DNA from: Deltaproteobacteria bacterium
Lineage (GTDB): Bacteria > Desulfobacterota > Binatia > HRBIN30 > CADEER01
Direction of reading: 5' to 3'
DNA length: 64,000 nt
Assembly (NCBI GenBank): GCA_029262455.1
Contig: JAJCZJ010000086.1
Coordinates: 62,001 to 126,000 of the forward strand
Part shown: piece after piece, positions 771 through 34,164 of the stretch
Position numbering within the stretch: position 1 is the first letter of the stretch
Layout: every line of letters begins with the position of its first letter
Position numbers and translations under genes: made by a program
Notes under the pieces: model-generated
Told to the model about the DNA's origin: nothing
The model's database searches: none
Seen by the model: only the letters and a program-made list of their open reading frames with translations

Positions 771-3473
771 ATGCGACAGGAATGGGGGCCTTCCGGACAC
801 GTGGATCTCAAGGAGCAGATTGGTTTGCACGAAAAGGCAATAAAAGTCGGGAAGGACTGGCAAACGCGGCGTCGCGGACTCCCGGCTCTGATTGCCCTGG
901 TGGGAATCCTGGTTCCCGGCGCAGCTTTTGGGATGAGTTTTGTCGCCAACACCTACACGCTCGGAGTCCAAGGGGAGCCGGTAGTCGCCGCGTTCGATAC
1001 GTCGGAGTTCGTCGTAGTGTGGGAGAGCGACGGACAAGATGGGGACGACCTGGGGGTATTCGCGCGTGTCTTTGATTCGCAGGGTAACGCCATAGGGGCT
1101 GAGTTTGTCGTCAACCAAACCACAACCGACATTCAGTCTTCGCCGACGGTGGCAGCGGACGGCGATGGCTTCGTGGTTGTTTGGGAAGAGTACGATGTTC
1201 TGGCCGTCGAGGACCGCTTGCTGGGGAGGATCTTTGACAGCCGAGTGGGACCGGTCGGTGACGAGTTCCGCATCGATACGGAGATCTCGGACTATCATAT
1301 AGCTCCAGTCATCAGCGCGCCTTCCGGCGGTCGATTTGTCGTTGCCTGGGATGATTACTCGGACGTTTTCGCGCAGCTCGTTGGGGTGAACGGTACCCTC
1401 GTGGGGAGCGAATTTCGCGTCAACGCGGCCACCTCCGGTTACCAATCATTGGCGACGGTGGCGATGCAGCCGGACGGTGGATTTGTCATTGCCTGGACCG
1501 ACGGCAGCTACTACGGCGGTAGCGACGGGGACGGGTACGGAATATTCGCCCGACGATTCGGCAGCAACGGCTTCGCCATCGGTAGCGATTTTCAGGTTAA
1601 CGTAACCAGTACTGGCGACCAGTTTGCGCCAAACGTCGTTGCGCATAGCGACGGAGGCTTCACCGTTCTGTGGGAGTCCTACGACCCCTTCGTCGGAGAC
1701 AGCCGCATAGCCAGTCGTCGATTCGACTCGCTGGGTGTTGCCCGGAGTAGCGAGTTCGAGCTCTCGGACGAGACCGCCGAGTACCCCAGCGCGGTTGCAG
1801 GCGCATCGGCCGTCAATGACGAGATGGTGGTGGTGTGGAGCGATCTACAGCAGACCTTCAATCTCGGCGTTGTTGGGCGCCGTGTGGATTCGGAAGGGGT
1901 TCCGATCGAGCCTCCGTTGGCAATCGATCCACTCTCTTCAGTCGATCAAGCCAGTCCGGATGTAACGTACTTGCCCGACGGGCGATTCGTTGCGGTGTGG
2001 GAAGCCGACGGCGCGGATGGCGATGATTCCTCGGTGGTGGTGAGTGTCGTCGGAAACCCGTTCCCCTCAGAAACGCCAACGTTCACCGTCTTGCCGACCA
2101 CCTCTCCCTCCAGCACTCCAACCGCAAGCCCGAGCCGGACGCCCACTGCGACGCTCACCGCGACAGCGGTCCCGACTGCTACGCCGAGCCAGACGAACAC
2201 CAACACTCCTACCGAGACGCCTTCGAATACGCCGACCCAAACCCGCACCGCGACCCGCACGGCGACTCGAAGTTTGACGCCGACCCAAACCCGCACCGCG
2301 ACTCGCACGGCGACTCGAAGTTTGACGCCGACCCAAACCCGCACCGCAACCCGCACGGCGACGCCAAGTTTGACGCCGACCAACACGAAGACGGTCACTC
2401 GTACACTGACGCGGACACGCACACCGACCGCTACTCACACCGAGACTAGGACGCCAAGCAGGACGCACAGCGGAACACCGACGAACACAGCTTCTTCGAC
2501 CAATACTTCGACGCGGACGACTACGGCCACCCAAACACCGACGTCTACAGTGACCCGCACCGGGACACAGCCGGCGACGGCTACGTTCACTCGTACGTTG
2601 ACTCCAAGTGCCACACCAAGCATTACCCGCACCCGGACATCCACGGCGACGCGGACCTTGACTCGAAGTGCGACGCGGACTCGCACAGGAACGGCGACTC
2701 GTACATCCACCAGGACCGGGACGGCGACCAGGACGGCGACCACGATCCCTTCGCTCGCGGCGACTCCGACAACGGTGCCAACCGCATCTGAAACCGCCAC
2801 CAGGGTTCCCACCGGGACGCGCACTCCAACTCCTACGCGTACCTTCACGCCGAGTCGCACGCATTCCCAAACTCGTACGCCGACCCGCAGCCGCACACCC
2901 TCTCAGACCGGCACGTTTACGAGGACACGCACCAACAGCCGCACGCCGATCGGTGGTGCGACCCAAACGCATACGGGTACGCCGACGCCTACCCAAACGA
3001 GGACTCCGCCGCCGAGTCGATCGAGAACCCGGACACGGACACCCACGCGCGATACGAGACCTTCGGGTACGCCGACAGCGACACCGTCGGTTCAGCCGAC
3101 CAGCCAGTTGACTCCGACCCCCAAGGCTACGACGACACCCGAACCGAGCGCGGTTGCGACCTTCACAGCGGCCGCAACATCGAAACCGACCGACACTCCT
3201 GCGTTGCCGACTGCGACTGGAACCCTCCCATCGGCTACTGCCACGGCCCGAGAAACGACACCACCCGAGACGACGACTCCGACGCACGGGTGCGCCGGCG
3301 ATTGTGATGGTGACATGCGCGTTTCGGTGTCCGAGCTGGTCCTTGCGGTCAACGTGGCACTGGGCAATCAGACGACGAACCGCTGCCTGAATGCCGATCG
3401 CGATGGCAATGGCCGCATCAGCATTGCCGAGCTCATCGGGGCGGTGAACCGGGCACTGGGCGGATGCGTATAG
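771..3473 (+). CDS. Secreted seven-repeat (beta-propeller-like) protein with Pro/Thr linker and C-terminal EF-hand pair
   Basis: About 900 residues. An N-terminal signal segment (RRR followed by a Leu/Ala/Val-rich core ending PGAAFG) precedes seven repeats of roughly 50 residues at about 58-433. Each repeat has the form P-x-V ... G-F-V-V-x-W ... R-x-F-D-S-x-G ... G-x-E-F-x-V-N, and seven copies suggest a seven-bladed propeller. Residues 434-838 are a low-complexity Thr/Pro/Arg linker. The last 60 residues hold two EF-hand loops (DCDGDMRVSVSEL and DRDGNGRISIAEL) framed by four cysteines, resembling dockerins. The start is uncertain: ATG 771, or TTG 825, which has AAGGAG at 810-815 nine bases upstream and a more typical signal-peptide length. 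An upstream ATG at 414 would bury the signal. A paralogue lies at 5899 beyond ppk1. Ligand unknown. Confidence 0.75.
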   Translation: MRQEWGPSGHVDLKEQIGLHEKAIKVGKDWQTRRRGLPALIALVGILVPGAAFGMSFVANTYTLGVQGEPVVAAFDTSEFVVVWESDGQDGDDLGVFARVFDSQGNAIGAEFVVNQTTTDIQSSPTVAADGDGFVVVWEEYDVLAVEDRLLGRIFDSRVGPVGDEFRIDTEISDYHIAPVISAPSGGRFVVAWDDYSDVFAQLVGVNGTLVGSEFRVNAATSGYQSLATVAMQPDGGFVIAWTDGSYYGGSDGDGYGIFARRFGSNGFAIGSDFQVNVTSTGDQFAPNVVAHSDGGFTVLWESYDPFVGDSRIASRRFDSLGVARSSEFELSDETAEYPSAVAGASAVNDEMVVVWSDLQQTFNLGVVGRRVDSEGVPIEPPLAIDPLSSVDQASPDVTYLPDGRFVAVWEADGADGDDSSVVVSVVGNPFPSETPTFTVLPTTSPSSTPTASPSRTPTATLTATAVPTATPSQTNTNTPTETPSNTPTQTRTATRTATRSLTPTQTRTATRTATRSLTPTQTRTATRTATPSLTPTNTKTVTRTLTRTRTPTATHTETRTPSRTHSGTPTNTASSTNTSTRTTTATQTPTSTVTRTGTQPATATFTRTLTPSATPSITRTRTSTATRTLTRSATRTRTGTATRTSTRTGTATRTATTIPSLAATPTTVPTASETATRVPTGTRTPTPTRTFTPSRTHSQTRTPTRSRTPSQTGTFTRTRTNSRTPIGGATQTHTGTPTPTQTRTPPPSRSRTRTRTPTRDTRPSGTPTATPSVQPTSQLTPTPKATTTPEPSAVATFTAAATSKPTDTPALPTATGTLPSATATARETTPPETTTPTHGCAGDCDGDMRVSVSELVLAVNVALGNQTTNRCLNADRDGNGRISIAELIGAVNRALGGCV
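2232..2375 (+). repeat. Three tandem copies of a 48-bp unit in the linker
   Basis: Three nearly identical 48-bp units (2232-2279, 2280-2327, 2328-2375) each encode P-T-Q-T-R-T-A-T-R-T-A-T-R-S-L-T or a close variant. They preserve the reading frame and lie inside the Thr/Pro linker. The high nucleotide identity suggests recent duplication by slippage or unequal recombination. Confidence 0.85.
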
Positions 3474-5898: not shown

Positions 5899-7404
5899 AT
5901 GGGTTCTTGGACAAGTAGGGTCTACATTGCGGTTTCGCTGGCGGGTTTGACGGCATGGGGAGCGGCTTGGGCGGGGCTGCTCCCGAGTGCCGTGCCCTTT
6001 ATCGCCAATACCGTTTCGGACGGTGTCCAGCGACAGCCTTCGATCGGCGCCGCCGGTGAGCGGTCGCTGATCGCCTGGGACAGCGATCCGCTAACGCAGG
6101 GCGACAACGATATCGTTGCTCGACTCGTCGATGGCGATGGCGTTGCGATTGGACAAGAGTTCGCTGTCAACACGACGACAGCTGAGACGCAGATTCGCCC
6201 CGTCGTTGCGGGGCTGTCGGATAGCAATTTTGTCGTCGCCTGGGAGAGCTACGTGCTCCTCACTGATGAGGATGAGCTGGTGTTTCAGCGCTTCGACTCC
6301 TCGGGCGCGATGGTCGGGAGCGAAGTCCACGTGGACGATACAGAATTCCATTTGAACGCCGATGTAGCTGGCACGGCGGTGGGATTTGTATTGGTTTGGG
6401 ACGACGGCTTCGACGTATTCGGCCGTCGCTTCGATGTGGACGGGTTGAGTCTTGGCGACGAATTTCGTGTCAACGATCAAGTCGGGACCATGTACGGGCC
6501 TCGGGTGGATTCTGGGTCTGACGGATCTTTCACCGTGGTGTGGGAAGATCGCAGCGCGATCGACGGTGACGGGTCCGGTATCCTCATGCGCCGATTTGCC
6601 AGTGATGGTTCGACGCTTACCGGAGATTTGCAAGTCAACTCGCGTGTCGATGGGGATCAGTATGCGCCAGCCCTCGGCGTCCGTGATGATGGTGCGTTCG
6701 TCGTCGTATGGGAGACCTATGGTCAAGACAGTGTCGGCGATGGGGCTTTTGGCCGGGCCTTTGACAGTAGTGGGTCTGCGGTTGGGAGCGAATTCAGTGT
6801 CGACAATGGAAGTTCGCCGTACGCCGGCTACCTCGACGCGGGCGCCATCGGCGACGCCTTTGCCGTGGTTTGGAATGAGCCGCGCGAGGATGGTGCGGAT
6901 GAGTTGAACGCCATGGTGCGGCGCTTCGATGCGACGGGCATCGGAGGGCAGATTATTGTTGTCGATCCGGACGACCAAGGCGATCAATCGGCGGGTGTGA
7001 TCGCGCCGAATGGTGACGGCGCCTTGATTGCCTGGCAGGGGTTTGGCCTCGACGGACAAGATATCTTTGCGCAACGATTCCAGCTCACCACTCCGGCGCC
7101 GACGGATACGCCGACGGCGACACCGGAACAAGCGACGCCGACAGCGACGCCGACCGTCGATGTCCCAACGGCGACGCCGACCGAAGATGAGCCGGTGTCG
7201 ACGCCAACGCCCTCACCGGCTTGTCCTGGAGATTGCAATGGCGACGGTCGAGTGACAGTCGCGGAGCTCGTCAGGGCGGTGAATATCGCTCTCGGCAGCG
7301 CGAATGTGAGCGTTTGTATTGCTGTCGACCGCAACTCAAATGGATTGGTTGCGATCGGCGAGATCATCGCCGCAGTGAACGCAGCCTTGTCGGGCTGTGA
7401 TTAG
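5899..7404 (+). CDS. Secreted seven-repeat (beta-propeller-like) protein with EF-hand pair
   Basis: 501 residues. ATG 5899 is chosen because GGAGGA (5889-5894) lies just upstream and a clean signal peptide follows (R-V-Y-I-A-V-S-L-A-G-L-T-A-W-G-A-A-W-A). Seven repeats at about 34-395 have the same plan as the protein at 771 (G-F-V-V-V-W, R-R-F-D-x-x-G, G-x-E-F-x-V-N). A short linker of P-T-A-T-P repeats (396-442) leads to a 60-residue Cys-framed EF-hand pair. Its first loop, DCNGDGRVTVAEL, is canonical. The second, DRNSNGLVAIGEI, has Asn at a usual acidic position. It is a paralogue of the gene beyond ppk1, with a much shorter linker. Probably calcium-binding and extracellular; partner unknown. 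Confidence 0.8.
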   Translation: MGSWTSRVYIAVSLAGLTAWGAAWAGLLPSAVPFIANTVSDGVQRQPSIGAAGERSLIAWDSDPLTQGDNDIVARLVDGDGVAIGQEFAVNTTTAETQIRPVVAGLSDSNFVVAWESYVLLTDEDELVFQRFDSSGAMVGSEVHVDDTEFHLNADVAGTAVGFVLVWDDGFDVFGRRFDVDGLSLGDEFRVNDQVGTMYGPRVDSGSDGSFTVVWEDRSAIDGDGSGILMRRFASDGSTLTGDLQVNSRVDGDQYAPALGVRDDGAFVVVWETYGQDSVGDGAFGRAFDSSGSAVGSEFSVDNGSSPYAGYLDAGAIGDAFAVVWNEPREDGADELNAMVRRFDATGIGGQIIVVDPDDQGDQSAGVIAPNGDGALIAWQGFGLDGQDIFAQRFQLTTPAPTDTPTATPEQATPTATPTVDVPTATPTEDEPVSTPTPSPACPGDCNGDGRVTVAELVRAVNIALGSANVSVCIAVDRNSNGLVAIGEIIAAVNAALSGCD

Positions 7405-7586: not shown

Positions 7587-9524
7587 GTGTTCAAGATTCG
7601 AAATGTGGTTGCGATATTCTTGATTGTAAGCACGGTCGAGGCGGTGTGTGCTCAAGAGGTGTGGCGGGTCTCGGACGTCGATCAGCGCGGGCAGTGGACG
7701 ATCTACAACCGCACGGCGAACGGCTCCCTATTGGGCATGCCGGTCACGCTTGGGGATTTGAACGGCGATATGATGGCTGATGCGGTGCTCACGCCGATGA
7801 ACGCCGACAGCGGGCCGGATCGGTCCCGTCCGTCTGCGGGCGAACTCAGCATTGTTCTCTCTTCGGGTGTCCTGGCTGGCGAGATCGACCTGGCGCTGGT
7901 TTCCCCGGACAACCTCCCGGAGTCGGTAACACTCGTCTATGGACGCGATCCACGCGATCTCTTAGGCACCGAAACCGCTGCGGCGGACATTGATGGTGAC
8001 GGATACGACGACATCATCGCTGGAGCCCAGCTCGGTGATGGTCCGAACAACTCCAGGCCTGGGTCCGGTGAAGTTGTCATCGTTTGGGGAGGGCCGGACT
8101 TTGGCGGTCAGGTGATCGACACAGCGGACCAAGACGCGGACGTGTCGTTCGTGTACGGCGCCGATGCTGGCGATCGGCTCGGTGTATGGGTGTTCTTCGG
8201 AGATCTCGACGGCGATGGGATCCAGGACGCGATCCTCGGCGCCGACCAGGGAGATGGCCCGGACAACAATCGCGGCGACATCGGCGAGACCTACGTCATT
8301 TACGGTGGTTCGCACCTACGGGCGGAGCGCGAGATTGACCTCGCGAATACGACGATCGCGCGAACGGTGGTGTACGGAATTGACCCAGAGGACCACAGTG
8401 GCACGACCGTCCGCGCCGGGGATCTGGATGGCGATGGGACCGACGAGCTGATCATAGGAGCCGGCGTCAACCGCCTTTCTGCGTCGGTCGCTGAGTCGGG
8501 TAATGGACACGGGTTTCGCGGTGGCGATGGTCCGGAGGGCGACCGCGACAGGGCGGGCGAGGCCTATGCGCTATTCCTTGGGAAGGACGCGCGGCCGGCG
8601 ACGATTGACTTGCGCTCGCCGCCGTCCTCGATGGTCGTCGTTTACGGAGCAGATGCGGGGGATACGTTCGGCGAGGAACTCTTCGTCGGGGACTTTAACG
8701 GCGACGGCTTTGGTGACATTGCGGTCGGAGCAATTGTCGGTGACGGCCCGGGGAACTCGCGCCCCAACGCTGGGGACCTAGCGCTGATCATCGGTGGTCC
8801 GGATCTCCCGGGCAGTATCATCGACCTGCGCACGCCCCCGGACAATGTGACGATTTTCCACGGCCGCAGCGCCGGCGCGATCGCTGGCGATACGGCGATG
8901 TTCGCTGACGTCGACGCCGACGGAATGGCAGATTTGGTGATCGCCAGTCCCAACGAACCTGTGAGTGGCGTTCGACAAGTAGGCACCACCCACATCTTCT
9001 TTGGCACTGCGGCGCCGCTGCCGGCCGTGGTCGATCTCGGGGCGATCCCGGGGGACCTCGACTACCTATTGATCGAGGGGAGTGGGGTTGGCGACATGCT
9101 CGCCTACAGTATGGGGGCAGGGGACAGCGACGGTGACGGCATTACCGACGTCATGCTCAACGTGATGGATGGAGACGGCTTCAACAATTCGCTCCCGTCG
9201 TCGGGCGACGCGCATGTCCTGAGCGGACGAGAACTCAGCCGCGCAGCGGGACGTCCGCTGCGAACAGCGACGCCAACTCCGACGATGGGGCCGCCCACAC
9301 CCACTCTGACGATGGCGCCGGCCACACCCACTCCTGGAGGGTGCCCGGGGGACTGCGATGGCGACGGGCGAGTGACGGTCGCGGAGTTAGTCAGAGGCGT
9401 GCGGATCGTTCTCGGGGTTGAGCAGCTATCGGCCTGTCCCGCGATGGACGCCGACGGCAATGGCACAGTCGCGGTGAATGAACTCATCGGGGCGGTCAAC
9501 GCGGCTCTCGGCGGCTGCTCGTAG
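7587..9524 (+). CDS. Secreted FG-GAP repeat (integrin-alpha-like) propeller protein with EF-hand pair
   Basis: 645 residues, GTG start at 7587 with GGAGG at 7576-7580 six bases upstream. A signal peptide (N-V-V-A-I-F-L-I-V-S-T-V-E-A-V-C-A) is followed by seven FG-GAP-type repeats, each with a calcium-loop motif such as DIDGDGYDDI, DLDGDGIQDA or DFNGDGFGDI. Each is followed by a G-D-G-P-x-N-x-R insert and a strand ending V-I-x-G-G. Seven such repeats form a seven-bladed propeller in integrin-like proteins. A short P-T-P-T linker leads at residue 585 to the Cys-framed EF-hand pair (DCDGDGRVTVAEL and DADGNGTVAVNEL). It follows another seven-repeat protein in the same direction. Likely extracellular and calcium-dependent; ligand unknown. 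Confidence 0.85.
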   Translation: MFKIRNVVAIFLIVSTVEAVCAQEVWRVSDVDQRGQWTIYNRTANGSLLGMPVTLGDLNGDMMADAVLTPMNADSGPDRSRPSAGELSIVLSSGVLAGEIDLALVSPDNLPESVTLVYGRDPRDLLGTETAAADIDGDGYDDIIAGAQLGDGPNNSRPGSGEVVIVWGGPDFGGQVIDTADQDADVSFVYGADAGDRLGVWVFFGDLDGDGIQDAILGADQGDGPDNNRGDIGETYVIYGGSHLRAEREIDLANTTIARTVVYGIDPEDHSGTTVRAGDLDGDGTDELIIGAGVNRLSASVAESGNGHGFRGGDGPEGDRDRAGEAYALFLGKDARPATIDLRSPPSSMVVVYGADAGDTFGEELFVGDFNGDGFGDIAVGAIVGDGPGNSRPNAGDLALIIGGPDLPGSIIDLRTPPDNVTIFHGRSAGAIAGDTAMFADVDADGMADLVIASPNEPVSGVRQVGTTHIFFGTAAPLPAVVDLGAIPGDLDYLLIEGSGVGDMLAYSMGAGDSDGDGITDVMLNVMDGDGFNNSLPSSGDAHVLSGRELSRAAGRPLRTATPTPTMGPPTPTLTMAPATPTPGGCPGDCDGDGRVTVAELVRGVRIVLGVEQLSACPAMDADGNGTVAVNELIGAVNAALGGCS

Positions 9525-14507: not shown

Positions 14508-14899
14508 TGTTATTTTGAGTCCGTCACGAGATTGTCTCGTTTGCACTTGTCGCAGAGCTCTTAGGTCGGTCACGCGATCAACAGGTTCGCGCTCTCGAAA
14601 TCACGTTTTCACTATCCTCCAATCTGAGAGTCGGGACGAAGCGCCTACTCGCATCCACAACCCGGGCAAACTTCGATTTCGCCGTTGGCTACAAAGACTG
14701 GCACCACAATCGATCCACGCGTGGTGGCTACCTCTGCCAGCTCACCGATCTAGATGCGACACTTGCCCCAAGTCAAATTCGGTATTGCGACCTGCTGCTT
14801 GACTCCGCCGCCGAATTTTCGCGTGCTTGATCTAGCGGTAACTGAATGTAGCGACGATAAGGTCCCGTCTCCGCGGTCTGCCGTTCCATTGACGGTTCT
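14508..14899. other. Intergenic, no recognisable gene
   Basis: This stretch, between the operon promoter and the stop of the serine protease gene, holds only short open frames rich in Arg and Ser. None has a family signature or ribosome site. I see no RNA gene or repeat. Confidence 0.4.
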
Positions 14900-17104
14900 T
14901 CAGGCGGAACATCCCCGCAGGCTAGACTGGACGGCGAGGATCAGTTCTGAGATTCTTACCACTCCATCGGCATTCGCATCGATTGATGGGCAGCTTTCGA
15001 TCGCGCCCCTGCCCAAACTGATTCCCACGCTGGTCACGAGTTCCGCCACGCTTACACGACCATCGCCATTGCAGTCGCCAGTGCATGTCGGGGTGATCTT
15101 GGGCGTCGCGGTGTTGGTTGAAGGGACGCTCGCAGTCAAGGTCGCAGTGGCGCTCGATGTCGCAATGGAAGTGGGTGTGAGCGTCTCACTCTCCGTTGGC
15201 GTTGGGGTGGCTGTTGGGGTTGGACGGGACGTCTTGCGCCGCAGTACTTCTTCGACGGCGTCGCGAGCGTCGATCAGTCCAGGCCCGGATAGAGTGTCGA
15301 AACCGGGGCTCTCTATGTCGATCGACGTTCCTTGCAGGATCCCCAGCGCTTCGATTGCACCGAGGTCGGGGTCGGCTTCGAACATCAACGCCGCAACCGC
15401 CGCAGCGTGTGGTGCTGCTGCAGATGTGCCGAAGAAGTTGCGAAAGCCGTCGTTGTCCACGTCGGGAAGTCCGAAGAAACTGGTGTTGGTCCCGTCCGGA
15501 GCCGTCAGTAGAGGGGAGGTTACGAGCCTTGGGGCGTTTTCGAGAGGATCCCCCTGTCCGTCAAAGTAGTAGGGAATTTCGCCGCCGAGGCTACTGAATG
15601 GCTCGACGTTGATTTCCTTCGGATCGCCTTGTTCAGTACCCTGGGTGTCGATCTCGCGGTAGAAGGAAGCTGCGGTGCTGATCACGCCGGGGGCGACCGG
15701 GTGTCCGTAGGCTTGGCTGTGGCGGAATACCTCCTCGTCCCACACGTAGGTGCTGGGAAAGTTGCAAAAGCGTGCGAAGCTCACGATTCGAAAGCGAAGA
15801 TTCTTGTCGCCGCAAACATGGTCGACTGCGAGGTAGACGGTTTGAGCCGCATTGTCCCGGTTGTCGTAGTCGACGATCTCGATTGGATCGCCGCGATTGC
15901 CACGTGTCGTGCTGCACCCCTGGGCGTCGCGGCCGCCGTCTCCGAGGCTGCAGTTGACCAGCGGGTTGTCGTCCGGGCAGACGTAGAGGTCGAGGTCCGA
16001 TCTCGGGCCGGGGCCGAGCGCTCCGGAAAACGGCTCGTTCCATTGCAGGATCATGCGTAGCCCACAAAAAGGTGGGATCGTAATCGGAGCAAAGCGACTG
16101 CCGTTTGAGAACAGATGGTAGTCGTCGCCGGTCGGCGGTGATTCCGTATCGTCGCGATTGGAGAAGTCCGTAAAGTTCTGATCAGCGCCCCAAGTGCCGA
16201 GGTTGCCGATGGCGGAAAAAAACATGACGCCGCTGTCGATGGCGCGCCCTGCAGCTTGGGCGATGATGCCATCCTGAAACATGGGCTCGACGAAATAGAT
16301 TACATCGTCGACGATGATGTCGGCCTCGCATGACACGAGCTCGTCGATGGCGCGAGCGAAAATCGAGGGCGAGGTGAATGCGGTGTAGAATGAGAGGTCC
16401 GCTCCGGGTGCGAGGTCATGGATCAGTTCCGCCATGGCCCGCCCTTCGTCGGAGCTCGGCAGGGGCGGCTCGGCCCCCTCGAGGTCCCTTGGTTCGGCGA
16501 TGACGTTGACGAACTCTGGAAGCTCGGCGGCCGCGTTGAAACGAAACGACTGGTACGTGCGACCACATCCCTCTCCGCCAAAGGTTCCGGGGGCCCGGCT
16601 CGAGAAGGTATCGGAGATCATGCCGATTCGGACTCCCGAGCCATCGACGGCAAATTCTTGTCTGGCGAGATCCGCTCGGATCGAGTTGTCGGCTTGGGAG
16701 AGTGCGTTGCCGACGCTGGCGGCGGCTCCGTAGTTGGGATGGACGGCTGTCACTTCTTTGAGAGCTGCGAGCGCCGGCAGACAATCACCGGGGCAAGTAC
16801 CGAAAACGCGAGCGTTCTCGAAGTCGGCGTGCAAAACATTGAGCCCGCCCTGGCGGAGGGCGTTGAGAATAGTGTGGTCGAGTTTTTCGAGGCGAATGTC
16901 GAGCTCGGGTTGGCCCTCTCTGGTTCGGAAGTGCGGCTCGGTGGAATGCGATCGCGGCGAAGGGCTCAGCAGGACGCGCGCCACGGCGGCAAGATTGGGA
17001 TCGCCCCGATAGACCGGGTCTCCGTCGATTGACGCGGCTTGCGCAAGTGAGGCGATTCGTAGAGCGAAAAGGGTGGCCAGGGCGATTCGAGTAAGTTGGA
17101 TCAT
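14900..17104 (-). CDS. Secreted subtilisin-like (S8-fold) serine protease with EF-hand pair
   Basis: 734 residues with a signal peptide (A-L-A-T-L-F-A-L-R-I-A-S-L-A-Q-A). An S8 core begins near 158 with G-V-R-I-G-M-I-S-D, where Asp165 is the catalytic-Asp position. The serine motif is F-F-G-T-S-A-A-A-P-H-A-A-A-V-A-A-L with Ser561. I find no canonical H-G-T-x-V-A; at its place is S-D-E-G-R-A-M-A-E-L-I-H-D-L-A-P-G-A, with Glu220 where His is expected. This arrangement recurs, as I recall, in a subgroup of S8 homologues. It may mean an unusual triad or loss of activity. A P-T-P-T linker near 640 leads to the Cys-framed EF-hand pair at 673-733 (DCNGDGRVSVAEL and DANADGVVRISEL). Transcribed divergently from the DUF748 gene. 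Confidence 0.8.
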   Translation of the reverse strand: MIQLTRIALATLFALRIASLAQAASIDGDPVYRGDPNLAAVARVLLSPSPRSHSTEPHFRTREGQPELDIRLEKLDHTILNALRQGGLNVLHADFENARVFGTCPGDCLPALAALKEVTAVHPNYGAAASVGNALSQADNSIRADLARQEFAVDGSGVRIGMISDTFSSRAPGTFGGEGCGRTYQSFRFNAAAELPEFVNVIAEPRDLEGAEPPLPSSDEGRAMAELIHDLAPGADLSFYTAFTSPSIFARAIDELVSCEADIIVDDVIYFVEPMFQDGIIAQAAGRAIDSGVMFFSAIGNLGTWGADQNFTDFSNRDDTESPPTGDDYHLFSNGSRFAPITIPPFCGLRMILQWNEPFSGALGPGPRSDLDLYVCPDDNPLVNCSLGDGGRDAQGCSTTRGNRGDPIEIVDYDNRDNAAQTVYLAVDHVCGDKNLRFRIVSFARFCNFPSTYVWDEEVFRHSQAYGHPVAPGVISTAASFYREIDTQGTEQGDPKEINVEPFSSLGGEIPYYFDGQGDPLENAPRLVTSPLLTAPDGTNTSFFGLPDVDNDGFRNFFGTSAAAPHAAAVAALMFEADPDLGAIEALGILQGTSIDIESPGFDTLSGPGLIDARDAVEEVLRRKTSRPTPTATPTPTESETLTPTSIATSSATATLTASVPSTNTATPKITPTCTGDCNGDGRVSVAELVTSVGISLGRGAIESCPSIDANADGVVRISELILAVQSSLRGCSA

Positions 17105-20051: not shown

Positions 20052-21003
20052 TTGCAGGCGCCGACGCGGCCCGAGGTCGCGGCGACGCGACCCAAGCTGT
20101 CCATCTGGGTTCGGCCGTCTGATTGGCCTACGCCACCGTCGATAATTGGACGGTTTTGGCCGCATGGCGCAAATTTGAATCGCGTCCGCTTTGGCGGCTG
20201 CTTGCGCGGAGCAGTACCTCGTCGACTGAACCCCGTTGGCGGGAGCTAACGCACATTGGCATGGCGCTTGCGCTTGATTCTTCTCACTACGGGAATTGGG
20301 AGAGCGACGATGGAAGAGTTGACGCCTTTTATGGTGCGATGCGTATTGACCGCGGGGGCTTATGGAGCCGCCTGCTGGCTCGGCGTGGCGCTCTTCTAGA
20401 TCCAACGGTGGCGACGGCGGCTTGCCTCGGACTTCCTGCCTGGGAAATTCAGAAGGAGGCGCCGGCAGGTTCAAGCACGCCAGTCCCGTTGAGCATCTCG
20501 CTGGCTCCTAAGTGTAATTTCTCACCGGCATGACCCACCCCAGAGGAAGTTTCTCTCACGGGATGACCCATGGGGTAGAGCGGAAGTCTCACAGCATGAC
20601 CCACCCCGGAGGTGAGGCGGCATCGAGGGTCGCCGAGTCCACAGCCGAGTCGAAAGCCTCCACGCTAGTGGCACCGAAGGAGGTGCAGCCTAGGTCAACT
20701 TAAAACCGCCTAGTCGGCTGTTTCAAATGTGACAATATCGCAAGGACTGTAGACAAATCTTGACCGAGTGGATGGCGGAGCGCTATCAAGTCGACCATGG
20801 GGCGACTAGGCATAAGCAATCGAGACAGGCCGCGAATTGGGACAGTGGGAAAGCATGGGTCCCGAGTAAACATCGAACCTGTGATTCGACCCAAGACTTT
20901 TAGTCGGCGGAATATGTTTCGGTACCTCACGGCCCTGACAAATCTCGATAGGCTTCGATACCGGAACTCGTCACGTCTATTTGGGCACGCTTGGGCGGGT
21001 GTA
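20052..21003. other. Long intergenic region with short repeats and no clear gene
   Basis: Roughly 950 bases separate the DUF748 gene from the likely start of the metalloprotease-like gene. A frame of 136 codons at 20123-20533 has no recognisable domain and weak coding character. A triplicated 33-bp repeat lies at 20521-20616. If the next gene uses ATG 20797 or 20914 instead of GTG 21004, the region is shorter. It could be a decayed mobile element, but no transposase similarity is visible. Confidence 0.4.
20521..20616. repeat. Three imperfect direct repeats of about 33 bp
   Basis: Copies start at 20521, 20554 and 20587. Each has CTCAC (or TCTCAC) followed by [CG]G[CG]ATGACCCA, a run of C or G, then GAGG. 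The first and third share the string GCATGACCCACCCC. The spacing of 33-34 bases is regular. They may be end repeats of a lost element or protein-binding sites. Confidence 0.7.
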
Positions 21004-24000
21004 GTGGCAGGTAAGGGCGTGCGCGTACTGGTGTTGCTCGCGCTGGGCGCGTTCTCGGTCGGTCAAGCTGACGCGGCCACAGTCAGTGGTTGCGCCGCGG
21101 AGTTCCCCGACCGGCAGTGTGGGACGACGACTCTCCAGGTGCAGCTGCAGCCCGGAGGCTTGTTCGCAGCGACTGATGGAGACGGGTTATTTTCCTTCGA
21201 CAATGTTCCTGCCGGGTCTTACACACTGACTGTATTGCCGACCTGCACTTTTGCGGGGTGTTACGATCCTGTTCCAGTCACTGTTGGGGCTTCTGACGTT
21301 GAAGTCTTCGTTCCGATGGAAGTGCCGCCAGGAGGAACCACGTCGGGCACCGGCGGCGGGAGTAGTGGGCCAACTAATCCCGTCGACTTTGCTACGCTGC
21401 AACAGTCTTTCGACCTGGATGTGACGTATATCGAACGAACTCCCAAGTATCGGTCCTATTGCCTCACGGACGATGGCCAGGTTCCTTGCGCGTCGGAATC
21501 CGATCCAATCTGCAAGACGCTGGGGGTAACCAACTGTCAGTGCCCGGGGCCAGACTGTTTGTGTGGGCCCGTTCAGAACGGCAAGCGCACCCCCGCCGTT
21601 GGAGACGATGTGACGTTCATTGCGCACGTCAAGAACAAGGGAGGGGTGGCCGCACCTGGGTTTATGTACACCTGGTGGGTGGGCGGCGTCGTCCACGAGA
21701 CCGGCTCTTATGATCCAGGCCCTTCGGGTCTCGCGCCAGACAATGCTCCGTCGAACCAAGTCGAGGCGCTCATCGCGATGAACACCACTGTTGATTGGCC
21801 GTCAGATTCTCAGAAGGTGAGATTTAGTATCGACAGTACAACAACGGGTACTGACTTGTTCGTTTCGAATAACTCGCTCGAGGTCGATACTCATGCCGTG
21901 CTCGCAGTATTTTATGTCGATGCCAACCCCACAGGCTCTGGACCGGAGCGACTGTATGATGGATTCAATTCCATCCAGCATGGCCTGACGGGCACCTATA
22001 GTTTCGAGGACTGGCTTCAGGAAACGATTCGGCAGGCCAATGCCCGCCTGCGCGCCTCTCAGTACGCGACGGTCGCCCCCGACGGCGCAATCGATCAGAT
22101 GGTAATCGACAACATTGTGATTGTCGCTGGAGGTTTTGGTACCGGCCCTTTCGCCAACGTCACCTATTTCGTCAACCATCAGTACCGGTTCTGTTACGAT
22201 GGCGGTTGGGCGTGGGGCCAGAATGACGACTTCGACTACGTCGATTCCTACGCGAACGATATCGACTGGCCGGGAATCCATGAGCTCGGGCACCAGGTGT
22301 TGTCGCTCCGGGACTTGTACAACATGAACGTCGACTCGGAGGTCCAGATTGAAGTCCAGCACTACTATGGCTTGCCCGTTTTGCTCTCCGAGTTGCCCGA
22401 CGTTTTTCCTTCCGGCCAATGGGGCCTGATGGGAGGGGCCTCGGTGTTTCCGCACGAACCGTTGTTTGACCCATTGAACGAATACTCTCTCTGGTGGAGC
22501 GCCCATTCGGTGGCTGCGCTGAATACGGACGCCCAGGAACGGCGATTCAATCGCGATCTCGGTGGCCGCTTCTTCTGGGATACCCCGGACAAGACCTATC
22601 TGAAGATTGTCGACAATCTTGGGGCCGTGATCCCAGATGCTGAAGTAGAGCTCTTTCAAAGGGACTACGACATGGCCACCCGGATCGCGACAATTGACAA
22701 CATTCGAGAGATTCCGGAGACGCCCGTGGAGACTCTGCTAACCAACGCGGGCGGTATCGTCGAGTTGCCCAATCGTTTCGCGCCGTCGGTCACCGTAGTC
22801 AGCGGTCATACGCAGAAGAACAATCCCTTTGGTGAGATTGATACGAGCGGCCACAACGGTTCGATGATCGTCAAGATCACCAAGGGCAATGAGGAGTGGT
22901 TTCGCTACCTGACGATTGTCGATCTCAATATGGCCTATTGGTCAGGCAACACGACCTCGGCAACGATCACCTTGGGACACCATTTCCAAAGTAATGACGA
23001 CGATCAGGATGAGGTCCCGGCATATTCTGACAATTGCCCAGGTGCGAAAAACACTTCACAGAGTGACGTCGATGCGGATGGGTTTGGGGATGCGTGTGAT
23101 TGCGATCCCAACGACGCGTCGCTCCCTGTTGGTATCGCTCCTGATAGCGATTGTGACGGCATCCCGGATGCGAGTGACGATTGTCCTGGGGAGCAAGACC
23201 TAGGCACCGACGATGACGGTGACGGAGTGGATGATGCGTGTGACAACTGCCTCTACCGCGCCTGGTGCATGCCGATGGACAGTCAGAATCCTGGACAAGA
23301 GGATGCAGATTGTGACGGCGTCGGCGATGTGTGCGATCAGGACGATGTCTGTTCTCTCGTTGGAGACTGCGACGGAGGCGGGACAGTCGTGATCGGCGAG
23401 TTGATCCGCCTGGTGAACATCGCCCTTGGAAATGAGGGTATAAGTGAGTGCCTCAATGGCGACGACAATGGAGACGGTGAAATCAACGTGAACGAGCTCG
23501 TCTTGGCCGTGCGGTCGGCGTTGTCCCCCTGTGTCTGCGCGGGCAATGCCGATCCGTATGTGTGTACACCGAGTGGGGCGACGACGAGTGGAGGCGGAAC
23601 AGAGGCGACGATTTCGATCGGCGATGGGGCGACCATTGTCGGAGGGACGGCCCCGATCGCGATTAGTCTTGATGCATTCCCGCCGGCGATCGGCGGGCTG
23701 AAGGTCGACGTACTCTTTCCCAACGATTCATTGTCGATTGATCCAGCAACGGATTGCACGCTGGATCCGTCGCTCAATCCAGCGTTGATCACGGTTGCCG
23801 CGTCCTTGACGACGACTCCGACACCCCCCGCCGGTAACGACCGAATGAGGGTTATCGTCTTCCCGCCGCCGGGTGGCACCGGGCAGGCGGGGATACCCAA
23901 TGGAGTCGTCGTGAACTGCAACTTCACGGTTAAGGCGTCGGCACCACCGGGTATGGTCTCCCTCGTTGGGGAGTTGGAGGAAGTCTCAACTACTCTTGGC

Positions 24001-24069
24001 GATCAGGTTCTGCCAACGGGCGTGTGGGGTGGCGAGATTACGATTTGTCCGGGCTGCGGCTGTCCATAA
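21004..24069 (+). CDS. Secreted HELGH metalloprotease-like protein with calcium repeats, EF-hand pair and cohesin-like domain
   Basis: About 1021 residues from GTG 21004, chosen because M-A-G-K-G-V-R then makes a clean signal peptide ending Q-A-D-A-A; ATG 20797 and 20914 are in-frame alternatives. Order of parts: a carboxypeptidase-regulatory-like beta-sandwich (about 30-95), and a CARDB-like segment with a cluster of cysteines. Then comes a putative zinc-protease region with H-E-L-G-H at residue 426 followed by Q-V-L-S-L-R-D-L-Y. Residues 663-780 carry thrombospondin-type-3 calcium repeats (D-V-D-A-D-G-F-G-D-A-C and similar). Next is the EF-hand pair (785-845; DCDGGGTVVIGEL, DDNGDGEINVNEL). 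The C-terminal domain (866-1016) reads like a cohesin: I-S-I-G-D-G-A, I-A-I-S-L-D-A, I-G-G-L-K-V-D-V-L-F, V-N-C-N-F-T-V-K, G-E-I-T-I. It could be both scaffold and enzyme. No neighbour in the same transcript. Confidence 0.75.
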   Translation: MAGKGVRVLVLLALGAFSVGQADAATVSGCAAEFPDRQCGTTTLQVQLQPGGLFAATDGDGLFSFDNVPAGSYTLTVLPTCTFAGCYDPVPVTVGASDVEVFVPMEVPPGGTTSGTGGGSSGPTNPVDFATLQQSFDLDVTYIERTPKYRSYCLTDDGQVPCASESDPICKTLGVTNCQCPGPDCLCGPVQNGKRTPAVGDDVTFIAHVKNKGGVAAPGFMYTWWVGGVVHETGSYDPGPSGLAPDNAPSNQVEALIAMNTTVDWPSDSQKVRFSIDSTTTGTDLFVSNNSLEVDTHAVLAVFYVDANPTGSGPERLYDGFNSIQHGLTGTYSFEDWLQETIRQANARLRASQYATVAPDGAIDQMVIDNIVIVAGGFGTGPFANVTYFVNHQYRFCYDGGWAWGQNDDFDYVDSYANDIDWPGIHELGHQVLSLRDLYNMNVDSEVQIEVQHYYGLPVLLSELPDVFPSGQWGLMGGASVFPHEPLFDPLNEYSLWWSAHSVAALNTDAQERRFNRDLGGRFFWDTPDKTYLKIVDNLGAVIPDAEVELFQRDYDMATRIATIDNIREIPETPVETLLTNAGGIVELPNRFAPSVTVVSGHTQKNNPFGEIDTSGHNGSMIVKITKGNEEWFRYLTIVDLNMAYWSGNTTSATITLGHHFQSNDDDQDEVPAYSDNCPGAKNTSQSDVDADGFGDACDCDPNDASLPVGIAPDSDCDGIPDASDDCPGEQDLGTDDDGDGVDDACDNCLYRAWCMPMDSQNPGQEDADCDGVGDVCDQDDVCSLVGDCDGGGTVVIGELIRLVNIALGNEGISECLNGDDNGDGEINVNELVLAVRSALSPCVCAGNADPYVCTPSGATTSGGGTEATISIGDGATIVGGTAPIAISLDAFPPAIGGLKVDVLFPNDSLSIDPATDCTLDPSLNPALITVAASLTTTPTPPAGNDRMRVIVFPPPGGTGQAGIPNGVVVNCNFTVKASAPPGMVSLVGELEEVSTTLGDQVLPTGVWGGEITICPGCGCP

Positions 24070-24167: not shown

Positions 24168-24635
24168 TCAGTCGATTTGCTTCGCCAGATAGTTTTCCAC
24201 GCCCACCTTGGCGATGAGATCGATTTGAGCCTCGAGCCAATCGACGTGCTCTTCTTCCGATTTGAGAATCTCTTCGAGCAGCTCTCGTGTGCCGTTGTCG
24301 CCTGCTTCCACAGCCTCGGCGATGGACTTGTTGAGGAGCGGAATCGCCTCCATTTCAACCTTGAGGTCGGCTTCGAACTGTTCCGGTACGGTCTCGCCGA
24401 CCTTGACCTTGTTCATGCGTTGCATGTTCGGCACGCCATCGAGGAACAGGATGCGCTCGATGAGCTGGTCAGCGTGCTTCATCTCACCGATCGACTCGGT
24501 GCGGTTGGCTTCCGCGAGCTTGCCCAGCCCCCAGTTGGCGCACATCTTGGCGTGAATGAAGTATTGATTGATGGCGGTCAGCTCGCCCGTGAGGATTTGG
24601 TTGAGTGCCTCGATCAACTTCTTGTTGCCCTTCAT
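24168..24635 (-). CDS. bfr: Bacterioferritin
   Basis: 155 residues, starting at ATG 24635 with GGAGGG eight bases upstream. It is a four-helix ferritin-fold iron-storage subunit. Ferroxidase ligands are visible at the usual positions: Glu18, Glu51 and His54 in G-E-M-K-H-A, and later the E-E-H pattern in K-S-E-E-E-H-V-D-W. Met52 is the heme ligand that distinguishes bacterioferritin from ferritin. Oxidises Fe(II) and stores the mineral in a 24-mer in the cytoplasm. It converges on the metalloprotease-like gene and lies downstream of the bacterioferritin-associated ferredoxin gene, its expected partner. No Fur-like site was seen directly before it. Confidence 0.96.
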   Translation of the reverse strand: MKGNKKLIEALNQILTGELTAINQYFIHAKMCANWGLGKLAEANRTESIGEMKHADQLIERILFLDGVPNMQRMNKVKVGETVPEQFEADLKVEMEAIPLLNKSIAEAVEAGDNGTRELLEEILKSEEEHVDWLEAQIDLIAKVGVENYLAKQID

Positions 24636-24834
24636 CTGAGGGTCCCTCCGTGTTCTCGGTCGGTGAACGACGGCCGAGCGGCATTGCGCCGCGGCAGTCG
24701 TGGTGGCAGGGGCGACTATAGCGTGACTAGTGAAGGGCGGGAATAGTTCCGCCGTCACCTGGCCGACGAACGGTAACGGCTCGACGCCGCGGCCCTACTT
24801 GGCAGCCCGATGCGGCAGCTTCTATGCTGCAGCT

Positions 24835-29247: not shown

Positions 29248-30195
29248 CTACTCGACCCGAAACAGCTGCTGTGGCCCGGCGGGTGTAGCGCCGAAGGGCA
29301 GGCCGAGCTTGGGGAATACCGTCGCGCAGTCCATGTCGAATGGCTGTGATTGGCATCCGGGTGCCGTGCCTTCCTGATTCGACTCCAGATCAGCATCGGC
29401 CAGGACCTGGGCGATGTCGGCGATGATGACATTGGTGTCCGGATTGAACCCGGTGAGGGTAATCTCCGGGCGATTGGGATTCATACACTCTTCGGTTGGC
29501 GGGATTGGCGGAGCAGCGCCGTTACATCCGGTGCTACCGAGGTGCAGGTTGTAGTTGGTCGACGTATCAACGGGGCCGGCGAATGCGTCGATCCGGATGA
29601 ACTTGTAGCCGCCGTTCCAGTTCCAGAACATCGCCGAGATGTTCAACGGCTCGGTTTCGCTCTCGGCATCGCCGTGATTCATGTCGAATGGCACGCCGAA
29701 GTCGAAGCGAACCCCGGTGTAAACTCCTGCAGGTGCGGTGCCTCGAACACTGGTGTTGAGCAGATCGTTGCCGACAGTGCAGGCGATGGCTCCGTCCTCG
29801 AAGTCGAGCAGCGCCAGTGAGTCGCGCTGCCAGATTCCGTCTTGCTCGAGGGCGAGCGGTACCTCGTCGCCGGCGGGCGTCAGCAGGCGAACATTAGAAA
29901 CGTACAAGCGAAAATCATTGACCCGGAGATCCGTTCCCGCTGCTCCCATCCCTTCATAGGTACCGCCACATTCGAATGCCCGATCGCCAACCATCGCCGC
30001 GAAATTGATCTCGATCTGACGGTCGGCACACCCGTCTAGGGCGTTGCGCACCGCAGTGACCAATTCGGAGATCACGACCTGGCCGTTGCCGTCGCCATCG
30101 CCGACGCATTCGCCGTTCACACCGATTCCCCGCTGAGCGATGGCCACTGTTGCCATCGAAAGGACCAATACCATTGTCGTGATCACTTGTTTCAT
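29248..30195 (-). CDS. MbnP-family copper-binding-like protein with an N-terminal EF-hand half-module
   Basis: 315 residues, ATG 30195 with GAGGAG seven bases upstream. A signal peptide ends T-V-A-I-A. Residues about 30-57 hold one Cys-framed EF-hand unit (C-V-G-D-G-D-G-N-G-Q-V-V-I-S-E-L ... A-L-D-G-C). From residue 60 on it matches the MbnP / metallo-mystery-pair family (TIGR04052-type): F-A-A-M-V-G-D-R-A-F-E-C-G-G-T-Y, D-F-R-L-Y-V-S-N-V-R-L, A-L-L-D-F-E-D-G, G-V-P-F-D-M-N-H, M-F-W-N-W-N-G-G-Y-K-F, L-H-L-G-S-T-G-C. Known members bind copper through Trp-derived ligands and pair with a di-heme protein MbnH. No MbnH candidate is visible here. Last of three genes in a probable copper operon. Confidence 0.85.
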   Translation of the reverse strand: MKQVITTMVLVLSMATVAIAQRGIGVNGECVGDGDGNGQVVISELVTAVRNALDGCADRQIEINFAAMVGDRAFECGGTYEGMGAAGTDLRVNDFRLYVSNVRLLTPAGDEVPLALEQDGIWQRDSLALLDFEDGAIACTVGNDLLNTSVRGTAPAGVYTGVRFDFGVPFDMNHGDAESETEPLNISAMFWNWNGGYKFIRIDAFAGPVDTSTNYNLHLGSTGCNGAAPPIPPTEECMNPNRPEITLTGFNPDTNVIIADIAQVLADADLESNQEGTAPGCQSQPFDMDCATVFPKLGLPFGATPAGPQQLFRVE

Positions 30196-32205: not shown

Positions 32206-34164
32206 GTGTTGCGAAGTGGAGTGGGGCGGGGCGCGGTGGTAGGCGTATGCGCCTACCTGATCGTTCTTTTTGCTGCGCCCGTACAATCCCAGGTTCCCGG
32301 ATGTACGGGAGATTGCGACGGCAGCGGCGATGTCGTCGTCGCCGAGCTGGTGGTGCTGGTGAATATTGCCCTCGGGCGCGCTCCGCTCTCGACCTGCAGT
32401 GCCGGCGATGTCGATGCGAGTGGGCGCGTCGACATCGGCGAGTTGGTCGGTGCGGTGGCTTCGGCCCTGAACGGCTGTGTCTCGACGCCGACCGCAGCTC
32501 CGTCGAGCCCGACACCAAGTGCGTCCGTACCCGCGGTTGCAACCGCCACGGCGAGTCTGTCTCCGACAGGTACTGCAACCGCCACGCCGACGGCTTCGCT
32601 CACACCGACGATGCCTTCCCCGACGGGGACGATTCGAGTCCCGACGAACACCATCACGCCGACCAGTACCAGGACGCTGACGAATACGAGGACGCCGACG
32701 GCCACCAGGACACCGACGAACACGAGGAGCTCGACGCGCACACACACGCCCACGATCACGTGGACTCGTACGTTCTCTCCATCCGCGACACCTTCCGAGA
32801 CCGACACGGCGACTCCGTCGCCGACCGGGACGCGTACGCCGACTCGGACGGAGGGGCGCACGAGAACTCCCACCGTGACGAATACGGCGACTCTCACTCG
32901 GACTCCCACGCCTACCGGAACACGGCCGAACACCGAGACGCCGACCCGTACGGCATCGTTTACACGGACCGGTACGCGTACGCGTACGCCGACGAATACG
33001 AGGCCATTCACGCGAACGCGAACGAATACGCGCACGGTGACTCCGACCCGCACAGCTAGCGGTACCCGGACTCACACGTTCACACGAACCCAGACCACTA
33101 CGAGGACCTCGACGCGGACGCGGACCTCGACCCCCTCTGTTACGAACACGCGAACGCCGACAACTACGCGGACGCCGACGCCGACCCGGACCCCGAGCTC
33201 GACGCGCACAAACACTTCGACGCGAACGGATACGCGCACCCGGACGCCGACCCCGACACCGACGGTGACGCGAACTTTCACGCCGACTCGGACTCATACC
33301 TTCACCCGCACGCCGACGCGAACGCGTACGCCGACCCATACGCAAACCCACACGCATACTGCGACGCCGACGTTTACTCCCACCCAGACGCCGACCGTGA
33401 CCCCGACTCCCGGTCTGGGGACAAGGCGTTTCTCTCTCGACCCGCTGTCGAGTCAGCTCCGCTTGATTCCGGGTTTGACGTTCACCGGAATGGAGGGCTT
33501 CCTCGATCTCACGGTTGGTGAGCCCGACCCCATCACCGGACTGGCTCTGGTGGCGGTTACCGACGCATCGGAGTTCATTTCGATCGAAGTCGGACTCCTG
33601 ACGTTGTGTATCAAGCCAGAGGTGCCGGTAACGAATGCAGGCGTGCTGGCCTGCAATGGTGGGGTGGACCTAGGCGTTACTTCGATCCAAGACCACAATA
33701 TCGGCGAGGTCGGAGTCGATAACTTCACCTCGATGGATTGCACGACGGCCAGCGGGAGGGTCGAGGATGCTAGCTCGCCACATGAGAATGTTTGTAACGG
33801 CCCTGTCTCCGTCGGACCGTCCAATATCCTCGACGCTGGACCAGGTGCACTGCTGTTAGCTCCCGACAGCGATTTTGCGACCGTCGGCCTGCCGGCGACC
33901 GCAAGCGTCGATTTCGGGCCCTGCGATGGGCACGGCCCCGGTGATCCCACTGTTTTCGGTTTTGTCAGCGCCCGTTCGAGGGCAACGATCTTGAATGCCG
34001 GCAACCAGCAGGGCGCCGTACTCGAGCATGATGAGTTCGGGGAGAACTTCTCCTGCGATCAGTGGATGGTCGAGGATGGTCCAGGGCGCATCGTCCTCAG
34101 TGTGCCGGCGGTTGACGGCGGAGCATCGAGTGATCTGATTACGGTCTTTGTCCTCGACGATTGA
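32206..34164 (+). CDS. Secreted protein: N-terminal EF-hand pair, long Pro/Thr linker, unknown C-terminal domain
   Basis: 652 residues from GTG 32206 (AGAGG-like site upstream), which starts right at a signal peptide (G-A-V-V-G-V-C-A-Y-L-I-V-L-F-A-A-P-V-Q-S-Q). ATG 31993 is in frame but would bury it. Residues 33-93 are the Cys-framed EF-hand pair (DCDGSGDVVVAEL, DVDASGRVDIGEL), here at the N-terminus of the mature protein. Residues 95-400 are almost entirely Thr, Pro, Arg and Asn. The final 250 residues form a folded domain beginning R-R-F-S-L-D-P and containing F-T-G-M-E-G-F-L-D-L-T-V-G, several paired cysteines and a V-D-F-G-P-C-D-G-H-G stretch. I cannot assign this domain. Divergent from the copper block. 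Confidence 0.75.
   Translation: MLRSGVGRGAVVGVCAYLIVLFAAPVQSQVPGCTGDCDGSGDVVVAELVVLVNIALGRAPLSTCSAGDVDASGRVDIGELVGAVASALNGCVSTPTAAPSSPTPSASVPAVATATASLSPTGTATATPTASLTPTMPSPTGTIRVPTNTITPTSTRTLTNTRTPTATRTPTNTRSSTRTHTPTITWTRTFSPSATPSETDTATPSPTGTRTPTRTEGRTRTPTVTNTATLTRTPTPTGTRPNTETPTRTASFTRTGTRTRTPTNTRPFTRTRTNTRTVTPTRTASGTRTHTFTRTQTTTRTSTRTRTSTPSVTNTRTPTTTRTPTPTRTPSSTRTNTSTRTDTRTRTPTPTPTVTRTFTPTRTHTFTRTPTRTRTPTHTQTHTHTATPTFTPTQTPTVTPTPGLGTRRFSLDPLSSQLRLIPGLTFTGMEGFLDLTVGEPDPITGLALVAVTDASEFISIEVGLLTLCIKPEVPVTNAGVLACNGGVDLGVTSIQDHNIGEVGVDNFTSMDCTTASGRVEDASSPHENVCNGPVSVGPSNILDAGPGALLLAPDSDFATVGLPATASVDFGPCDGHGPGDPTVFGFVSARSRATILNAGNQQGAVLEHDEFGENFSCDQWMVEDGPGRIVLSVPAVDGGASSDLITVFVLDD

Follow-up and report, generated by a model that had tools for sequence, protein, structure and literature searches.

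In this work we compare a protein encoded on the plus strand of a 64,000-nucleotide stretch of DNA (contig JAJCZJ010000086.1 of a Deltaproteobacteria bacterium; the whole stretch is called the window) with the described cohesin-dockerin systems closest to it. The protein joins a peptidase-like region, calcium repeats, a dockerin-like EF-hand pair and a cohesin-like domain on one chain. Cohesin-family domains, duplicated calcium-loop modules and a multi-cohesin scaffold are found in the clostridial cellulosome (CipA and relatives) as well as here, and so are separate surface-anchored cohesins and adaptors with both modules (in part PMC8063739). In contrast to the clostridial system, the putative clients here are proteases, beta-propellers and FG-GAP proteins, and further differences are two invariant cohesin cysteines, a glutamate at position 12 of the calcium loop, MYXO-CTERM-like anchors and a CxGCxC tail.

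Peptidase clients and a tandem-cohesin scaffold are also known from Candidatus Stygibacter (Cloacimonadota). C-terminal dockerins are located there on S8/S53 and C25 peptidases and on GH18 and GH57 enzymes, a tandem-cohesin protein of 3,755 amino acids is scaffoldin-like, and degradation of polypeptides and polysaccharides was inferred (excerpts of PMC8542988). In the same excerpts four enzymes with dockerins are named, and the scaffold is attached through a C-terminal domain of its own, whereas the genome studied here has EF-cohesin cassettes, at least 143 EF-hand pairs and several cohesins that are anchored separately. Scaffoldin-like proteins that are not cellulolytic and combine a dockerin with as many as five cohesins have been reported for anaerobic methanotrophic (ANME) archaea; here the host is not an archaeon, and the common dockerin proteins of ANME are ATP-binding cassette (ABC) substrate-binding components (PMC9012536, in the part considered). 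In the Coh1-Doc1 scaffoldin WP_128706311.1 of Acetivibrio mesophilus, an S8-peptidase-like domain and a C-terminal cohesin-dockerin pair share one chain as in the window protein; however, the order of the pair is reversed, FN3 and galactose-oxidase-like domains are present, and the host displays a cellulosome (PMC11557425, as far as its excerpt goes).

Because cohesin-dockerin systems not devoted to cellulose, also with peptidase clients, are in print (PMC9012536 and PMC8542988, in the portions cited above), the kind of system is already known. Among the papers listed by a literature search on cohesins and dockerins in connection with MYXO-CTERM, proteobacteria, uncultured bacteria and proteases, none dealt with the order of our host or with the cassette described below, which is weak evidence of absence. 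We consider it reasonably likely that the window protein is an exported zinc-peptidase-like enzyme and at the same time an adaptor in a cellulosome-like surface assembly. If the modules bind, the order would possess a large, order-wide cohesin-dockerin system with proteases among the clients and MYXO-CTERM-like anchors. It would also have a new cohesin family, disulphide-bridged as judged by sequence, with partners testable as binding pairs, and the CxGCxC tail would be a candidate new C-terminal element.

Cohesin-like domain and EF-hand pair

All positions refer to the whole window, and residue numbers count from the ATG at 20797. The open reading frame extends from 20797 to 24069 on the plus strand and comprises 1090 amino acids counted from this first ATG. 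An earlier note on this DNA had seen in the protein a HELGH motif, calcium repeats, an EF-hand pair and a cohesin-like C-terminus, and as a whole this observation is confirmed. The C-terminal domain (23608..24045) starts at residue 938, contains two family-invariant cysteines and matches the cohesin-like profile A1 with E 1.6e-51, the domain itself being a row of this profile.

Taken alone, the domain was not assigned to any family by Pfam or NCBIfam at E <= 10, and a Pfam search at E <= 1 likewise gave none. It is no chance pattern: a search of its own genome with the domain (with a query whose first letter was wrong) found 17 places at E <= 1, counting the window copy. Labels with C, G and L denote contigs, genomes and loci of our survey, and G000 is the genome that includes contig C86. 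The match on C34 has 49% identity (E 2.5e-34), those on C23 and C31 have E values near 1e-8, and the one at C86:165813 (E 7e-4) is itself a Pfam Cohesin match with E 2.4e-8; four places among the 17 exceed the Pfam Cohesin cut-off. Profile A1 is an alignment of 16 cohesin-like domains, that of the window and 15 from the same genome, and C52, G101 and C106 are invariant in all 16. Against the PDB the profile found 15 sequences at E <= 1 (best 6kgc, E 6e-6), 13 of which are named cohesin or scaffoldin entries; the other two, 5nrm and 5nrk, are labelled endoglucanase. Pfam Cohesin (PF00963) was matched by 11 of the 16 members at E <= 1, with a best value of 5e-9. The window's own copy has no match to this curated model, and its family link runs through intermediates.

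Since neither Pfam nor NCBIfam recognises the window copy by itself, it is the family, and not the window sequence alone, that carries the assignment as cohesin. For the family we predict a cohesin with high confidence. The cohesin proposed previously from the strand pattern thus stands by way of the 16-member profile and its PDB cohesins, and a profile search with the window copy by itself did not bear it out. An assignment to another beta-sandwich was not obtained in the profile searches. The single-sequence structure model of the domain consists mostly of strands, at low confidence (predicted local distance difference test, pLDDT, 42).

The EF-hand pair (23359..23532) starts at residue 855, and a short Cys/Gly/Ser linker of about 25 residues (23533..23607, read from the sequence) lies between its end and the C-terminal domain. 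The distance of about 80 residues given previously is right when measured from start to start (855 and 938). The pair matches profile A2, built from 21 EF-hand pairs including this one, with E 8.9e-23. In the 7.3-Mb genome this profile found 151 places at E <= 0.01, some of them partial (150 of 264 candidates scored), and at least 143 matches at E <= 1e-8 (150 of 255 candidates scored). Among 60 sampled pairs, 32 end at most 5 residues from the stop codon, 20 lie behind a hydrophobic, signal-peptide-like stretch and 8 are located elsewhere; L206, one of the 20, is doubtful and looks by eye like a tandem pair. The 20 flagged loci (between L174 and L229) make the mature N-terminus a second frequent place for the pair besides the C-terminus.

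In most of the 60 samples the first loop follows directly on a linker, a signal peptide or another stretch, which leaves no space for an entering helix. The absence of this helix is a dockerin trait. Identity between first and second halves is 51% within a protein and 48% across proteins in the 55 full-length pairs, compared with 61% among first halves and 51% among second halves. The family has the two near-symmetric repeats of calcium loop and helix, without entering helix, of type I dockerins. Loop positions 1, 3, 5 and 12 are nearly all D/N/S and E in these 55 pairs, and position 12 is Glu. Clostridial dockerins have Asp at this position. Half symmetry in dockerins has been tied to dual binding (PMC8063739, in the passages used). 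The window pair is less regular, its halves being 36% identical and position 5 of its first loop being G; its second loop has the calcium ligands at the usual positions. Pfam Dockerin_1 (PF00404) was matched by 10 of 21 family members at E <= 1; the window pair gave no match to it and reached EF-hand models only, below cut-off.

Possible partners in the genome and in the order

In the own genome, 37 places matched the cohesin profile at E <= 1. After exclusions, for which the remnant at C86:76648 and the weak second matches at C123:63887 and C125:101642 were dropped, 34 domains in 28 genes were left. An EF-hand pair is also present in 19 of these 28 genes, compared with 0.6 expected if the two were independent (p 4e-26, 6500 genes assumed, weakest A2 matches left out of the EF gene list), and among the 141 listed EF-pair genes, 122 encode chains without a listed cohesin. 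Nine cohesin genes are without an EF-hand pair. Seven have membrane-anchored ends (C81, C85, two genes on C111, C123, C125-609 and C126), consisting of a transmembrane stretch and basic residues as judged by eye; the one on C50 has a lipidated look (a lipobox-like LTGC, again by eye); and the ninth, on C63, is a scaffold with at least 3 cohesins, Thr/Pro linkers and DUF11 repeats that is cut by the contig end. A further multi-cohesin gene, on C14, encodes one EF pair and 4 cohesins. Multi-cohesin reading frames (C63, C14), anchored cohesins and at least 143 EF pairs together make up a gene set in the style of a cellulosome.

The end of the C85 protein exceeds the NCBIfam MYXO-CTERM cut-off (21.0 versus 20), as in MYXO-CTERM/myxosortase sorting (in the part of PMC11980579 used). 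It is the only one of ten scanned proteins to do so; four of the other nine scored below cut-off, and the remaining five, with a cassette protein among them, had no match. For 45 of the 60 sampled EF proteins the stop lay within the stretch (the other 15 ran off), and a crude test for anchors was negative in all 45; therefore the anchors are on the cohesin side, as far as seen.

The neighbourhoods of these genes are similar in several genomes of the order. A gene with the order EF-cohesin-EF adjoins an anchored-cohesin gene in G000, G001, G002 and G004, and G003, where the pair is seen in part, probably shares it. EF-pair genes are also located beside an anchored cohesin at C85, at C126 and in G008, and beside a cohesin in G003 whose anchor is truncated by the end of the contig. 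Multi-cohesin frames of 1764-2232 amino acids with 3-5 cohesins are present in G001, G002, G004 and G005, and in the first three of these an EF-pair gene is located upstream on the opposite strand.

With the own-genome profiles both families were found in 15 of 15 genomes of the order (10-143 EF pairs and 4-33 cohesin-like domains per genome) and in none of the 24 others of the class. Pfam cohesin was found in 14 of the 15 versus 3 of the 24, and Pfam dockerin in all 15 versus 10 of the 24. As the profiles come from the own genome and the order is one clade, this class-wide co-occurrence counts little as a test of partnership. Outside the order, Pfam dockerin and cohesin matches stand side by side at G026:C19:20976-21886 (L244), a place at which the own-genome profiles reported nothing.

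The last ~235 residues of the window protein consist of a dockerin-like EF-hand pair, a cohesin-like domain and the CxGCxC tail. In the reading that we prefer, the EF-hand pair, loaded with calcium, would plug into a cohesin of a membrane-anchored protein or of a multi-cohesin scaffold of the same cell, and this docking would hold the peptidase at the cell surface. The protein's own cohesin would be left free to receive one further EF-pair protein. The comparisons show to which families the domains belong, how they are arranged, which genes adjoin and how the families are distributed; that the modules bind and need calcium, that the protein is at the surface and that it acts as a peptidase is inferred. 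The assembly would, as far as seen, not be directed at cellulose: 19 cassette, EF-pair and scaffold proteins scanned whole with Pfam contained no glycosidase, a scan that did not include a search for carbohydrate-active enzymes (CAZymes). Nine of the 19 gave other Pfam families, namely S8 subtilase, FG-GAP, PD40 and DUF11, as well as M12 and DUF7107 below cut-off.

The earlier note had suggested that the protein could both dock and be docked, which is a fair reading of a chain that carries a cohesin-like domain and a dockerin-like EF pair. Its proposal of a scaffold candidate is not favoured. The window protein has one cohesin, and C63, C14 and the membrane-anchored cohesin genes are better candidates; it looks like an enzyme or adaptor client that may also offer one socket, rather than like a scaffold.

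It might also be possible that the EF pair and the cohesin pack against each other within the chain as a rigid, calcium-stabilised stalk or cap, and that no docking between proteins takes place. This would agree with the ~25 residues that separate the adjacent modules in the window protein and with their order, which is the same in eleven tail-bearing proteins and in the relatives L161 and L164. The reverse order, cohesin then EF pair, exists as well (L149, L169, L232, L233), however, and packing within the chain would not account for the 122 EF-pair genes without a listed cohesin or for the nine EF-less cohesins, of which one is a scaffold and the other eight have the look of anchored or lipidated proteins. 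With EF pairs on their own and anchored cohesins lacking EF pairs, partners in trans make most sense, and we regard packing within the chain as rather unlikely.

Several observations weigh against a docking system. The first loop of the window pair has G at position 5, so that the usual ligand is missing; G was found there in none of the 55 sampled pairs. The best PDB matches of profile A2 are EF-hand proteins (for instance calmodulin and SCaMC-1), and no dockerin is among the best 60 of 306. The cohesin-like domains on C81, C123 and C88-950 match the cohesin profile weakly, with 20-25 bits, and the scripted cohesin scan reported neither C81 nor the cohesin-like stretch of G012. Outside the order, Pfam dockerins (10 of 24 genomes) outnumber cohesins (3 of 24), and in G017 there are 8 matches to dockerin and none to cohesin. 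In cohesins, Asn37 and Asp39 are contacts of the dockerin Ser/Thr motif (PMC5772552, in the section used). The conserved Asp of our family falls two residues past the NCDF Asp of the CipA cohesin 1aoh in a count by eye, and therefore the clostridial contact code is not kept, as far as that section describes it.

Some of these points would suit a plain adhesion or carbohydrate-binding beta-sandwich with a calcium stability module, that is, two modules that are no docking pair: the window domains have poor scores or none with Pfam cohesin and dockerin, the PDB search places the EF pair close to ordinary EF-hands, and the Asp conserved in the cohesins is, by eye, out of line with the clostridial contact Asp. 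This explanation appears quite improbable, given that EF-pair and anchored-cohesin genes adjoin in several genomes, that 19 of the 28 cohesin genes have an EF pair on the chain, and that the near-symmetric duplication of the EF pair is a dockerin trait. Self-assembly, in which the tail-bearing proteins would link head to tail into enzyme chains or a coat closed by tail disulphides, could draw on the two modules and the common Cys tail of eleven proteins, some of them proteases or protease-like, and is very unlikely, with separate anchored cohesins present that could take the same EF pairs.

Peptidase region, calcium repeats and cysteine tail

Translation of the window protein probably starts at the GTG at 21004 (residue 70), which is also the start assumed previously; the ATG at 20797 is open as well. 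From the GTG, a likely signal peptide of the classical type is encoded at 21004..21075, judged by eye from the sequence. At 21163..21234 (residues 123-146) a weak match to a carboxypeptidase-regulatory-like beta domain was found (Pfam CarboxypepD_reg, E 8e-5, below cut-off).

The peptidase-like region (21364..22971) is without an assigned family, as the window protein matched no recognised peptidase family of Pfam or NCBIfam. Of 38 other genomes, 3 have homologs of this region at E <= 0.001, namely G004, G008 and G012; the three congeners gave none. The HELGH zinc-binding-type motif, reported previously, is located at 22279..22293 (residues 495-499), and HExxH is kept in the two homologs that cover it, as HELGH in L162 and as HEVGH in L163; the G008 piece stops short of the motif. 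The window protein may be a zinc peptidase. In G008 the homolog continues with thrombospondin type 3 repeats, EF pair and cohesin, followed by a further region, and the G012 homolog has, both by eye, a cohesin-like stretch and a MYXO-CTERM-like end. The frames of the homologs are split in G004 and G012.

The calcium repeats (22990..23337, limits approximate) begin at about residue 732 and are thrombospondin type 3-like. The NCBIfam model throspo3 matches residues 732-773 with E 1.4e-9, yet far below the cut-off of the model. In the PDB, cartilage oligomeric matrix protein (COMP) matches residues 745-868 with E 5.7e-8, and Pfam TSP_3 reaches E 0.039 only. The repeats noted previously are thus present.

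The protein ends with the sequence CPGCGCP and the stop codon (24046..24069; pattern search and profile check). A C-terminal cassette of EF pair, cohesin and CxGCxC tail is common to eleven proteins of the genome, and EF precedes cohesin in all of them. Searching the own genome for the pattern CxGCxCx-stop gave 13 matches, 12 with a true stop and the thirteenth with TGG, hardly more than the 10 in the reversed control. All 12 stop-ended matches end a cohesin-profile match, 11 as intact cassettes and one as a remnant; it is only this place on cohesin ends that is telling, not the pattern count. The stops of the 12 are nine TAG, two TGA and one TAA. An order-wide tail was rejected: the 14 relatives in the order gave 41 pattern matches (reversed control 114; 22 end in TGG), none of which ends a cohesin-profile match. 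At one of them, L257, a cohesin is located about 0.7 kb away on the other strand. Wider scans of genome contigs with the tail-bearing alignments, in which very near genomes were possibly absent, gave 43 stretches that match the pattern and no confirmed relative among them. Looser Cys ends on cohesin-like proteins, GNCGC in L234 (G008) and GGCTGSCC in L238 (G009), are possible relatives of the tail.

A truncated MYXO-CTERM domain was rejected as origin of the tail, since no membrane segment is found behind the stop in the 11 intact cassettes (three frames, by eye), in which the tail differs from the MYXO-CTERM domains described in PMC11980579 (excerpt). Within the cassette, the tail probably serves for disulphide formation or for anchoring. 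The other ten cassettes are 27-51% identical to that of the window, and their absence from the congeners therefore points to loss or import more than to copying in recent times.

Eight of the ten other cassette proteins were scanned with Pfam and gave two subtilase matches over cut-off and one M12 match below it; one further cassette protein has a weak NCBIfam metalloprotease match (NF038122, below cut-off). It is conceivable, if unlikely, that the large kit of the order is aimed at proteins instead of cellulose and that the eleven exported cassette proteins (several protease-like) dock, are docked and so chain at the surface, with the Cys tail as lock or anchor. At L140 (G000, C86:162500-172500) two cassette proteins each have an upstream frame that holds a weak EF-pair match.

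Within the window, further EF-hand pairs of the same family were found by profile at 3291-3467, 7222-7398, 9342-9518 and 32302-32478 on the plus strand and at 14909-15085 and 30028-30147 (partial) on the minus strand. A subtilase-like gene ending in an EF-hand pair is located at 14900..17104 on the minus strand (Pfam Peptidase_S8, E 1e-5, over cut-off, covering part of the model). In frame behind its stop, a decayed cohesin end with a CPGCGCE tail was found at 14645..14743 (minus strand, profile columns 123-153 only), and the gene seems to have lost its cohesin. The studied gene is adjoined by an open reading frame of 196 amino acids on the minus strand (24168-24758), whose product, by eye, resembles a bacterioferritin.

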